Source: Hallerella succinigenes (GTDB taxonomy: Bacteria > Fibrobacterota > Fibrobacteria > Fibrobacterales > Fibrobacteraceae). Taken from it: 64,000 nucleotides of DNA. The position numbers and the translations under genes were made by a program. A model generated the notes under the pieces. The model saw nothing but the letters and a program-made list of their open reading frames with translations. It was not told where the DNA came from and made no database searches. The DNA is taken from positions 682,001 through 746,000 of the forward strand of contig NZ_PGEX01000001.1 in assembly GCF_002797675.1 (NCBI RefSeq), given 5' to 3'. Numbering within the stretch: position 1 is the stretch's first letter; the number at the start of each line of letters is the position of its first letter. Positions 29,961 to 34,900 of the stretch are shown here, one piece after another.

Positions 29961-32900
29961 TTACACCTCTTCAATGCTTGCGTGATACTCCTGCAGGCTC
30001 TTCACAGCGCCATGTCCGTTACGGGCGGCGGCGATGCCCTTGACGGTGTTGTAGGCACCGGCGAGGGTCGTGATGTAAGGAACCTTGTACTTGATGGCGG
30101 CCTTGCGGATGGCGCTTTCGTCCTTGATGGCGTCGCGCTTTGCCCACGGCGTGTTGATGATGAGGTTCACCTGCTTGTTCAGAATGATGTCGAGGACGTT
30201 CGGGCGGCCTTCAGCAATCTTGTTCACCACTTCGCACTTGACGCCGGCCTTCTCGTAGAACTTGGCGGTACCTTCGGTTGCGTAGATCTTGAAGCCCAGT
30301 TCCTGGAAACGCTGGCCCACTTCGATAGCCTGGTCGCAGAGGTTAGTCTTGTCAGACAAACTAATCAGCACGGCACCTTCGTTCGGGAGGAAGGAACCTG
30401 CGGCTTCCTGGCTCTTGTAGTAAGCGAGGGCGTAGTCGTCGGAGAGGCCGAGGACTTCGCCGGTGGAGCGCATTTCGGGGCCGAGAACCGGGTCAACCTT
30501 GGGGAACTTGTCGAACGGGAACACAGCTTCCTTAGCGCCGTGGTGGTTGAACTTCTTGTCCTTGAGCTTCAGGTCAGAGAGCTTTTCGCCGAGCATCAGG
30601 CGGGTCGCGAGGCGGGCCATCTGGGTGTTGCAAACCTTGGAGACCAGAGGCACCGTGCGGCTTGCGCGCGGGTTCGCTTCGAGGACGAACACCTTGCCGT
30701 CTTCGATAGCGTACTGCATGTTCATGAGGCCGCACACGTGGAGAGCTTCGGCAATCTTCCTGGTGTAATCCTTGATGGTCGCGAGGTTTTCCTTGGTGAT
30801 GGTCACCGGCGGGATAATGCAGGCGGAGTCACCGGAGTGGACGCCGGCAAGTTCAACGTGTTCCATCACGGACGGGATGTAAACGTGTTCGCCGTCGCTC
30901 AAAGCGTCGGCTTCGCATTCCAAAGCGTTGTGGAGGAAGCGGTCGATGAGGAGCGGGCGATCCGGGGTCACGCCGACAGCCTTCGCCACGTATTCGCGGA
31001 GCATGTTTTCGTCGTAGATGACTTCCATGCCGCGGCCGCCAAGCACGAAGCTCGGGCGGATCATCACCGGGTAGCCGCCGATCTGCTTGACACAGGCGAG
31101 GGCTTCGTCGATGTTCGTGGCCATGCCGCTTTCCGGCATCGGGATGCCGAGCTGGTCCATCATCTTGCGGAACAGGTCGCGGTCTTCGGCGATGTCGATG
31201 GAGTCGATGCTCGTACCGAGAATCTTGACGCCTTCGTCGGAGAGTGCGCGGGCGATGTTCAGCGGGGTCTGGCCACCGAACTGCACGATCACGCCAGCCG
31301 GCTTTTCCTTGTGGTAAATCTGGAGAACGTCTTCGAGGCTGACCGGTTCGAAGTAAAGCTTGTCGGAAGTATCGTAGTCGGTAGAAACCGTTTCGGGGTT
31401 GCAGTTCACCATGATGGTTTCGTAACCCATTTCGCGGAGAGCCATTGCAGCGTGGCAGCAGCAATAGTCGAATTCGATGCCCTGGCCGATTCTGTTCGGG
31501 CCACCGCCCAAGATCATGATCTTCTTCGGGTTAGTGGAAGCGGTAGATTCGTCCTTGCAGTTGTAGGTGCTGTAGTAGTAGTACTGGTCCTTCACGCCGC
31601 TTACCGGCACGGCGCACCAGCCTTCGACCACGCCGAGTTCGGTGCGCTTCTTGCGCACGTCCTTTTCGCGGATGCCGAGGATCTTGGCAATATACTTGTC
31701 GCTGAAGCCGTCCTTCTTGGCCTTGATGAGGAGTTCATCGGCAGGCAGGCGGCCCGGAGTCTTGAGCATTTCTTCTTCGAGTTCCACGAGTTCGCGCATC
31801 TGCTGCACGAAGTAGGCCTTTTCGTAGGTGGCGGCGAAGATTTCTTCGTCGGTAGCACCCTTACGGATGGCTTCGTACATCTGGAAGTGACGTTCGGAGC
31901 TCGGGGTCTTGAGCATTTCGAGGAGTTCTTCCTTGCTCTTCTTGTTGAAGTCCTTCGCAAAGCCGAGGCCGGAGCGACCGTTTTCGAGACCGCGGATAGC
32001 CTTCTGGAGGGTTTCCTTGTAGGTCTTGCCGATAGCCATGACTTCGCCCACAGCCTTCATCTGGGTGCCGAGGCAGTCATCAACGCCGCGGAACTTTTCG
32101 AATGCCCAGCGGGCGAACTTGAGCACCACGTAGTCACCGCTCGGGGTGTACTTTTCGAGGCTTCCATCGCGCCAGTACGGAATCTGGTCGAGGGTGAGGC
32201 CTGCAGCGAGCTTTGCAGAAATGAGGGCGATCGGGAAGCCGGTAGCCTTGGAAGCAAGGGCGGAAGAGCGAGAGGTACGCGGGTTGATTTCGATAATCAC
32301 CACGCGGCCGGTCTTCGGGTCGTGAGCGAACTGCACGTTGGTACCGCCAATCACGCCGATGGATTCCACAATCTTGAAGGCCTTTTCCTTCAGTTCTTCT
32401 TCGAGTTTCTTGTCGATGGTGAGGAACGGGGCTGCGCAGAAGGAGTCGCCGGTATGCACGCCCACCGGGTCGATGTTTTCGATGAAGCAGATGGCGATCA
32501 TCTGGTTCTTGGAATCGCGCACGACTTCGACTTCGAGTTCTTCCCAACCGAGGATAGATTCTTCGATGAGGCACTGGTGCGTCATGGAGAGTTCGAGGCC
32601 GTTACCGCAAATGGTGCGGAGTTCTTCCACATTGTAGCAGAAACCGCCGCCTGCACCGCCCATGGTGTAAGCCGGGCGAACCACCACCGGATAGCCGATT
32701 TCGGCCACGATCTTTTCGGCTTCTTCTACAGAGTGGCAAATGCCGGAGCGCGGGGTGTCGATGCCGAGCTTCTGCATGGTTTCCTTGAAGATTTCACGGT
32801 CTTCGCCGCGTTCGATAGCGTCGAGGTTCACACCGATGACCTTCACGCCGTACTTGTCCAACACGCCTGCCTTGCTAAGTGCAGAGGCGAGGTTCAGGCC

Positions 32901-33179
32901 TGTCTGACCGCCCAAGTTCGGGAGGAGTGCCTGCGGGCGTTCCTTTTCGATAATCTGGGTGAGGCGGGCGACGTTCAGCGGTTCGATGTAGGTGGCATCG
33001 GCCATGACCGGGTCGGTCATGATGGTTGCCGGGTTAGAGTTCACCAGCACGATCTTGTATCCCTGTTCCCGCAGGGCCTTGCAAGCCTGAGTGCCAGAGT
33101 AGTCGAATTCGCAAGCCTGGCCAATGACAATAGGGCCAGAGCCGATGATAAGGACTTTGTCGATGCCTTCAATCTTCAT
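29961..33179 (-). CDS. carB: Carbamoyl-phosphate synthase large subunit
   Basis: Makes carbamoyl phosphate from glutamine-derived ammonia, bicarbonate and 2 ATP, for pyrimidines and arginine. The start MKIEGIDKVLIIGSGPIV at 33179 has GGAG 9 bases upstream; ATG 33194 overlaps that ribosome site. The two ATP-grasp halves are present (GGAGGGFCYN and LGGRGMEV glycine loops; EINPRTSRSSALASKATG and [17 protein letters not shown]), as is a C-terminal MGS-like allosteric domain (SLSDKTNLCDQ ... NTPWAKRD). About 1072 residues, normal length. carA is not adjacent. The 1071-aa antisense frame is a shadow. The carB 3' end is duplicated twice in decayed form downstream. Confidence 0.97.
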   Translation of the reverse strand: MKIEGIDKVLIIGSGPIVIGQACEFDYSGTQACKALREQGYKIVLVNSNPATIMTDPVMADATYIEPLNVARLTQIIEKERPQALLPNLGGQTGLNLASALSKAGVLDKYGVKVIGVNLDAIERGEDREIFKETMQKLGIDTPRSGICHSVEEAEKIVAEIGYPVVVRPAYTMGGAGGGFCYNVEELRTICGNGLELSMTHQCLIEESILGWEELEVEVVRDSKNQMIAICFIENIDPVGVHTGDSFCAAPFLTIDKKLEEELKEKAFKIVESIGVIGGTNVQFAHDPKTGRVVIIEINPRTSRSSALASKATGFPIALISAKLAAGLTLDQIPYWRDGSLEKYTPSGDYVVLKFARWAFEKFRGVDDCLGTQMKAVGEVMAIGKTYKETLQKAIRGLENGRSGLGFAKDFNKKSKEELLEMLKTPSSERHFQMYEAIRKGATDEEIFAATYEKAYFVQQMRELVELEEEMLKTPGRLPADELLIKAKKDGFSDKYIAKILGIREKDVRKKRTELGVVEGWCAVPVSGVKDQYYYYSTYNCKDESTASTNPKKIMILGGGPNRIGQGIEFDYCCCHAAMALREMGYETIMVNCNPETVSTDYDTSDKLYFEPVSLEDVLQIYHKEKPAGVIVQFGGQTPLNIARALSDEGVKILGTSIDSIDIAEDRDLFRKMMDQLGIPMPESGMATNIDEALACVKQIGGYPVMIRPSFVLGGRGMEVIYDENMLREYVAKAVGVTPDRPLLIDRFLHNALECEADALSDGEHVYIPSVMEHVELAGVHSGDSACIIPPVTITKENLATIKDYTRKIAEALHVCGLMNMQYAIEDGKVFVLEANPRASRTVPLVSKVCNTQMARLATRLMLGEKLSDLKLKDKKFNHHGAKEAVFPFDKFPKVDPVLGPEMRSTGEVLGLSDDYALAYYKSQEAAGSFLPNEGAVLISLSDKTNLCDQAIEVGQRFQELGFKIYATEGTAKFYEKAGVKCEVVNKIAEGRPNVLDIILNKQVNLIINTPWAKRDAIKDESAIRKAAIKYKVPYITTLAGAYNTVKGIAAARNGHGAVKSLQEYHASIEEV

Positions 33180-33197
33180 ATTTCTTGTCTCCATTAG

Positions 33198-33350
33198 TTA
33201 AAATCCTGCACGCAAAAAAAATGTCGAACCCAAAGGCCCGACATTCAAAAAACAACAATCAAAGGTTTTGCAAATGGAAGAAATAGAAACGACCGCGGTG
33301 GAATGTTTGCCACCGGTGAACTTGCGCATGGTATTCGTCATCGCGTTCAT
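33198..33350 (-). CDS. Putative carB leader peptide (attenuation)
   Basis: A 50-codon ORF from ATG 33350 (MNAMTNTMRKFTGGKHST then AVVSISSICKTFDCCF) reads through pyrimidine-rich codons and through the terminator hairpin at 33220-33245. It ends at TAA 33198, about 10 bp before the carB ribosome site. A leader ORF that crosses its attenuator, preceded by U-rich transcript tracts, is the arrangement of enteric pyrBI. Function is inferred; the peptide itself is probably unimportant. A TATATT element at 33387-33392 could be the promoter -10. Confidence 0.5.
   Translation of the reverse strand: MNAMTNTMRKFTGGKHSTAVVSISSICKTFDCCFLNVGPLGSTFFLRAGF
33220..33245 (-). terminator. Attenuator-type terminator in the carB leader
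   Basis: AATGTCG and CGACATT pair around a 12-base loop, followed on the minus strand by eight T residues and then the carB ribosome site. It is too close to carB to be the end of an upstream gene, so it probably controls read-through into carB. Confidence 0.7.
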
Positions 33351-33486
33351 TTACTTCTCATTTTCGCAAAAGCTTAAACTTGGCACAATATAGACAAAAA
33401 TGTGGGAATTTTAAATGGTAAAAACCCAATCTTTACAGAAATGCACCTTTTACAAACAAAAAAAGGAACCCGCCGGCATAGTGAAC

Positions 33487-34900
33487 TGAACCCAAAAAGT
33501 TGGACAGTTTAAAGTTAGGATAAAACAGCGTTATGAGTCCGGTATTGTACCGGACTCATTCCGTTTAGGCGCAGCTTTATCCGGTCGTTGTTGTAGTATT
33601 CGATATACTTCCTCAGCTCCTGTTTGAAGTGGTCCATGTTTCTGAACGTGTTCGGGTAGAGAAGCTCTGACTTCATTATTCCAAAGAAGTTCTCCATCAT
33701 GGCATTGTCCAGGCAGTTGCCCTTACGGCTCATGCTCTGGATGATTTTATGATCTTTCAGCGATTTCTGGTAAATCGCATGCTGGTAGTGCCACCCCTGA
33801 TCCGAGTGCAGAACCAGTCGCTTCCAGGTACGCTTCTTCGCATATGCCCGGTCCAGCATGTCCATTACCATCTTCAGGTCCGGATGGTCCGAGATTGCGT
33901 AGCTGACTATCTCGCCGTTATACATGTCGAGTATTGGCGACAGGTAGCACTTGTCCATGCCGATGTTTATCTGAGTCACGTCGGTAGTCCATTTCCTGTT
34001 GGGGGCCTTTGTGTTGAAGTTCCGCTTGAGCCTGTTCGGGGCGGTCTTGCCGACCTCGCCCTTGTACGAGCGGTACTTGCAGCGCCTGCGCACGTTCTTC
34101 AGGCCATCTTCCTTCATGAGCCGATAGACCGTCTTGTGGTTTATGGCATAGCCCTCGTTCCGGAGCTGGGCCACGATGCGGCGGTAGCCATAGCGACCCT
34201 TGTTCTGGGCGTGTATGGCCTTGATTCGCTTGCGCACGACGGCGTAGCGGTCGGGGCCATCCTTGAGGTTGTAGTAGTACGTGGAGCGGGACAGCCCGCT
34301 AGCCTTCAGGAGATGTCTCAGGGCGTACTCGGCGCTCAGTTCGCGGACGACTTGGGCCCTATACCGAACATCTCGGCACTTTCTTCCTGGTCTAGGGCCT
34401 TTAATTTTTTTAGGTAGGCGTTCTCCGCTTTTAGATACTCATTTTCTTCCCTGAGGCGTTCAATCTCGCTCATTCCCGTTGTCCATTTCGGCTTGGCCTT
34501 GTTCATCTTGGGTGGTCTCCCTCTCGGCTTGGTAGCTAGCAGTTCTTCGTATCCGCCATGACGGTATTTCCGCAGCCAAGAACTCAGGCTGGTAAAACTT
34601 ATGCTGTACTTGGCGATAACTTCCGCATAAGATAGAGATTTCTTGACGACCGCGTCGATGACAGTCCTCCTCAAGGCAGGAGTTGACCGAACATTCGTTT
34701 TCCTTTCAGTCTGCCAACAGCCGGTCTGTCGGTAAAGCCGGATATGGCGCTTAATTTCGGACAGTTCCAGACCTGTCAACCTTGAGATTGACGGAGAGTC
34801 GTAACCATCCTTGTGAAGTTCATAGGCCTTGGCCCATTCTTCTTTTGTGTGTTTCTGGTACATGAAAACTCCGAAAGTTGTGTCCAACTTTCGGGGTTCA
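33487..34900 (-). mobile_element. IS3-family insertion sequence (IS150-like) inside a hairpin
   Basis: Ends share TGAACCC followed by AAAGTTGGACA in inverted orientation (left from 33487, right to 34900). The flanks GAACCCGCCGGC (33466-33477) and GCCGGCGGTTC (34908-34918) are complementary, so the element inserted in the loop of a hairpin. No exact target duplication is seen. Confidence 0.85.
33515..34887 (-). CDS. IS3-family transposase OrfAB (programmed -1 frameshift)
   Basis: OrfA (34336-34887) has helix-turn-helix domains (YDSPSISRLTGLELSEIKRH; SYAEVIAKYSISFTSLSSWL) and a coiled coil. Seven A residues on the coding strand (34405-34411) allow a -1 shift into orfB, which is open to 33515. 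The OrfB core reads RKWTTDVTQINIG (Asp), LVLHSDQGWHYQH (Asp) and SRKGNCLDNAMMENFFGIMK (Glu), ending in YNNDRIKLRLNGMSP. Typical IS150-group proteins; apparently intact. Confidence 0.9.

Follow-up and report, generated by a model that had tools for sequence, protein, structure and literature searches.

UTP-sensitive attenuation that is coupled to translation is best known from enteric bacteria. At E. coli pyrE, a translated upstream gene plays the leader role, instead of a dedicated short open reading frame (ORF). Attenuation of pyrE is cited as UTP-sensitive and translation-coupled in PMC4491880, and control of pyrBI by UTP via coupled translation is cited as established in PMC4491880, PMC3641672, and PMC4824070. 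E. coli carAB, which encodes the same enzyme as the carB genes considered here, is controlled at initiation, without leader-peptide attenuation and thus unlike the leader described below; transcripts from its P1 promoter start with GUUUGC and slip at high UTP (PMC6245113).

Here we describe the leader of a gene for the large subunit of carbamoyl-phosphate synthase, carB, in Hallerella succinigenes (Fibrobacterota). The window, as we call the whole 64,000-nucleotide stretch of DNA that was analyzed, is part of a complete 3.13 Mb genome (G000), and carB (29961-33179; 1072 amino acids) lies on its minus strand without an adjacent carA, as do all the leader features that follow. A promoter region (33387-33414) has a -35-like TTAAAA and a -10 box TATATT (33392-33387) and holds two overlapping candidates. 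Transcription would start near 33380/33379, about 30 nt before the leader ORF, and the presumed start and initially transcribed sequence read AAGTTTAA (33374-33381). After a ribosome site, GAGAAG (33359-33354), comes an ORF of 50 codons from the ATG at 33350 to the TAA at 33198 (MNAMTNTMRKFTGGKHSTAVVSISSICKTFDCCFLNVGPLGSTFFLRAGF), whose frame is conserved in 46 relatives. The original prediction had reported this ORF and had it run through pyrimidine-rich sequence; a U-rich tract occupies the 45 nt before the hairpin (33247-33291, 56% U). It had also described the ORF as crossing a terminator hairpin. An intrinsic terminator is indeed present between promoter and carB in the window and in its relatives, and in the window it lies inside the ORF (33214-33246, hairpin at 33246-33219); its eight T residues, however, form a run at 33221-33214 and do not fall within 33220-33245, where they had been placed. 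As predicted, the ORF stops just before the carB ribosome site, GGAGA (33192-33188), a motif conserved in relatives, and 18 nt separate its stop from the carB ATG at 33179.

An IS3-type element occupies 33459-34900 on the minus strand, with a transposase at 33515-34237 and an upstream ORF. Its end lies about 45-65 nt upstream of the carB promoter, and the genome has similar end sequences at other places. Because this puts the end of a transposase (33515) upstream of the leader, the attenuator could be read as the ordinary terminator of this element, crossed by a fortuitous ORF. We give this reading virtually no chance: the promoter sits between the element and the terminator, and conservation refutes it, as 45 other genomes share this terminator and ORF, mostly with upstream sequences unlike that of the window.

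When E. coli pyrL was measured as a yardstick with the same approach as the carB leaders, the two proved alike in geometry. pyrL has 44 codons and an ATG-to-hairpin distance of 88 nt (87-124 nt in the carB leaders), its hairpin ends 30 nt before pyrB (29-60 nt before carB in leaders without an insert), and in both cases an ORF containing a U-rich run passes through an eight-T intrinsic terminator. UUU also comes just after the presumed start in both, within AATTTG in pyrL and AAGTTTAA in the carB leader. The carB leader differs in its gene (a lone carB), its phylum, its more uniformly U-rich tract, and its stop-to-gene distance, which is 3 nt in pyrL and mostly 14-29 nt in the carB leaders. 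There is no evident common descent, and the carB attenuator, with UTP as its presumed effector, apparently evolved separately from pyrBI. The shared geometry, together with a leader peptide that is not under selection and a U-rich codon choice (both below), supports the pyrBI-like logic that had been proposed for this leader.

We therefore consider it probable, by analogy, that attenuation at the carB leader is coupled to translation in the manner of enteric pyrBI, with UTP as its signal. RNA polymerase would cross the U-rich tract inside the leader ORF and, when UTP is low, would slow there and let the leading ribosome catch up. Because the ORF runs through the terminator, this ribosome could keep the hairpin from folding, and carB would be transcribed. 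At high UTP, the polymerase would run ahead, the hairpin would form, and transcription would stop. Given that an ORF across the terminator is conserved in 46 leaders, as in pyrBI, carB is probably switched on when UTP is low; in this scheme we infer UTP as the signal, the pausing in the tract, and the transcription start site.

Orthologs of the window-type gene, which we named carB1, were found in genera g1, g5, g6, g7, and g11 of the family, and 48 carB1 upstream regions with a recognizable start were recovered. The leader is carried by 46 carB1 upstream regions from three genera (g1, g6, and g11). An ATG ORF spans the terminator in all of them, and the succession of ORF start, tract, and terminator is kept in 46/46, so that the ORF and the hairpin both held in related carB leaders, the check that the original prediction had set. 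A single ORF of this sort might be accidental, since the mean chance probability of a leader staying open is 0.23, but conservation of the layout in every leader excludes chance for the ORF. Short carB1 leaders without an attenuator were seen in G017 (g5), G103 (g7), and, on reading, G015 (g5), and we count these against the pyrBI-like reading.

Several observations bear on translation of the leader ORF. From the ATG to the hairpin end, the 46 leaders contain no stop in frame, against 90 and 139 for the two remaining frames, a count in which the leader frame had been picked as the open one. For this reason, the ATG-to-hairpin distance is a cleaner test. It takes 14 values between 87 and 124 nt among the 46 leaders, 13 of which (87-123 nt) are divisible by three and together account for 45/46 leaders; the promoter-to-hairpin distance, which served as a control, is divided 16/15/15 among the three phases. 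The constraint on length changes thus begins at the ATG and does not apply from the promoter. Between terminator and carB, 19 leaders (L008-L058 leaders) contain REP-like inserts such as GTCATCCTGAGCG...AAGGATC. The leader frame stays open through the inserts to near carB in 17 of these 19, where 7.9 would be expected (p ~9e-6 on the assumption of independent leaders, which holds only in part). Leader substitutions are distributed 46/38/30 over the codon positions, and single changes in the ORF comprise 13 synonymous and 52 non-synonymous ones in 19 independent pairs; by this sequence comparison, the leader peptide is not under selection. In G110, a different frame runs through the same hairpin. 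Together, the conserved frame, the unconstrained peptide, and the frame change in G110 indicate that the act of translation is kept and not the peptide product, and the carB leader is almost certainly a translated attenuator.

A translated leader might instead sense translation itself, that is, growth or ribosome supply and not UTP, with stop-to-start coupling feeding ribosomes to carB. In line with this, the usual leader stop lies 14-29 nt before carB, even through the inserted repeats, and reinitiation from leader ORFs can raise the translation of nearby genes (PMC4833913). However, stops occur in all frames of the AT-rich stretch before carB, which makes the stop position partly automatic, and the U-rich tract, the T-ending codons, and the conserved UUU start would be left unexplained. 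We regard this alternative as unlikely.

The tract on which UTP-dependent pausing would depend has 47% U on average over the 45 nt before the hairpin in the 46 leaders. U accounts for 22% of the 5' part of the leader ORF and 18% of carB. Phe is encoded by TTT and TTC in a ratio of 158:17 in the leaders versus 1:32 in carB, and the codons for Ile, Val, Asp, Gly, Ala, and Asn shift toward T-ending forms in the leaders as those for Phe do. The T-richness of the tract appears to arise by codon choice and, because the peptide is free to vary, U content itself is apparently the selected property. An excess of Phe and Ser in the leader peptide follows from the U-rich tract. Codon use also bears on amino-acid attenuation of the trp/his type, for example by arginine, in which the ribosome would stall at control codons. 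carB does serve arginine synthesis as well, and its leader, short and translated, does contain a terminator. Nevertheless, Arg codons are depleted in the leaders (1.3% vs 4.2% in carB), there is no control-codon run for an end product, the peptide is unconstrained, and the ORF spans the terminator in 46/46 leaders; in amino-acid attenuation, by contrast, more than 20 bp separate the end of the leader from the terminator (PMC4824070). Because of the spanning ORF and the scarcity of Arg codons, amino-acid attenuation is disfavored, and we hold it to be very improbable.

The terminator hairpin is itself well conserved. Across 22 distinct sequences, all cells (100%) of its eight-pair stem are paired, and both sides have changed at 5/8 stem pairs, a level of compensation that was reached by 0/500 shuffles. 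A possible pause hairpin inside the leader ORF (CGGTGG/CCACCG, 33296-33315) has weak energy support. In relatives, a local hairpin precedes the terminator by 42 nt (median), with energies weakly better than those of shuffles (mean z -0.68), which counts against the pyrBI-like reading.

Pyrimidine genes, a leader terminator, and a pyrR in the genome are likewise features of the PyrR-dependent pyr attenuators of Bacillus. If PyrR were the signal here, its UMP-bound form would bind the leader RNA and block leader translation, and the terminator would form. pyrR was present in 10/10 genomes tested, where it heads a pyrR-pyrB-pyrC operon, so PyrR could be the pyrimidine sensor, and a translated leader could be blocked by a protein. 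Unlike the Bacillus attenuators, however, the carB leader is translated, and the PyrR RNA element RF00515 gave no match in the window leader or 16 relatives in a search that would miss a diverged element. Moreover, the leaders have no conserved motif besides promoter, start region, and terminator, and we judge control by PyrR improbable. No Rfam family fits the carB leader. Against the pyrBI-like reading we count that no such leader was found at the pyrR-pyrB-pyrC operon, pyrE, pyrD, or the second carB.

The best-conserved part of the leader extends from the -10 box to about +6 (89% vs 54-57% in the flanks), in leaders recovered with a search pattern that favored the first eight bases. TTT at positions 14-16, outside that pattern, is invariant in 46/46 leaders. 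Within six genomes the start motif is carB-specific, apart from matches with two mismatches, and the g5 and g7 genomes without an attenuator keep AAATTT at the start region. The conserved initially transcribed GUUUAA of the carB1 leaders resembles the start of E. coli carAB P1, and the conserved AA(G/A)TTT start region could by analogy add UTP-sensitive slippage. UTP-sensitive initiation is therefore a plausible second layer of control, given the conserved UUU start and the behavior of carAB P1.

In most clades, modeling of the leader RNA is suggestive of a long-range helix between the 5' end of the leader and the U-rich tract. In the window, the 5' arm of this predicted helix (33352-33379) covers the leader ribosome site. 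When the 5' arm was tested for duplex formation with the tract, the outcome was mixed, since any U-rich tract will pair with a purine-rich 5' end. In ensemble predictions, pairing between 5'UTR and tract amounted to 14.8 expected pairs per cluster versus 9.1 with shuffled tracts and 10.4 with swapped tracts; it was clearly above the shuffled control in 8/10 clusters and above swapped tracts in 7/10, and the largest cluster showed no excess over swapped tracts. Strong closing of the leader ribosome site was predicted in one clade only. In cluster L058 (e.g., L011, L019, and L023), the site is predicted to be open in the early transcript, and in most members its openness falls from about 0.6 to 0.0-0.1 once the tract has been made. 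These elements could be combined into a layered, independently evolved UTP sensor for a lone carB that was acquired horizontally, with slippage at the UUU start, a translated-through attenuator, and a tract that pairs back on the 5' end (over the leader ribosome site in one clade) as a timer. A polymerase that finished the tract before a ribosome had loaded would then leave the leader closed, and transcription would stop. We put this elaboration forward tentatively and think it rather doubtful as a whole.

The genome holds a second carB beside carA (G000:C1:1665397-1668663), which is about 52% identical to the window carB. Outside the family, carB1 relatives occur in Spirochaetes, Kiritimatiellae, and Clostridia with 63-80% identity; sequence comparison suggests that carB1 was acquired horizontally. 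Among 75 outside-family carB1 loci with upstream sequence, a set that includes one Fibrobacter record in which the detector failed to find the terminator, a hairpin resembling a terminator was seen at 12, and at 5 an ORF crosses it. Since the same detector finds 40/46 family leaders, an origin of the attenuator within the family is most likely, and carB probably did not bring the leader with it, as relatives outside the family are mostly without a spanning ORF. Upstream of an Opitutales carB (L109, 1319-1451, plus strand), a 43-codon ORF likewise crosses a terminator that closely precedes the gene, which may be another independent instance, in this case outside Fibrobacterota. The window carB1 has 94-95% nucleotide identity to several from genus g6 but 87% and 78% within its own genus, which suggests gene exchange; the window leader, unlike its carB1, resembles G102 and G100 of its own genus. 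Extra C-terminal carB fragments, from about residues 620-840 to 1072 and with 90-98% identity, occur at G051:C1:1836-2666, in G050:C35 and G061:C17, and in others, and the G051 fragment lies on the same contig as the full gene, about 5 kb downstream.

We found no report of leader-peptide attenuation in Fibrobacter in the open-access literature. The 46 natural leader variants offer a ready set for testing which features matter. From a well-conserved and apparently independent case that involves another gene in Fibrobacterota, it would follow that this mechanism evolves repeatedly and that transcription and translation are closely coupled in this phylum.
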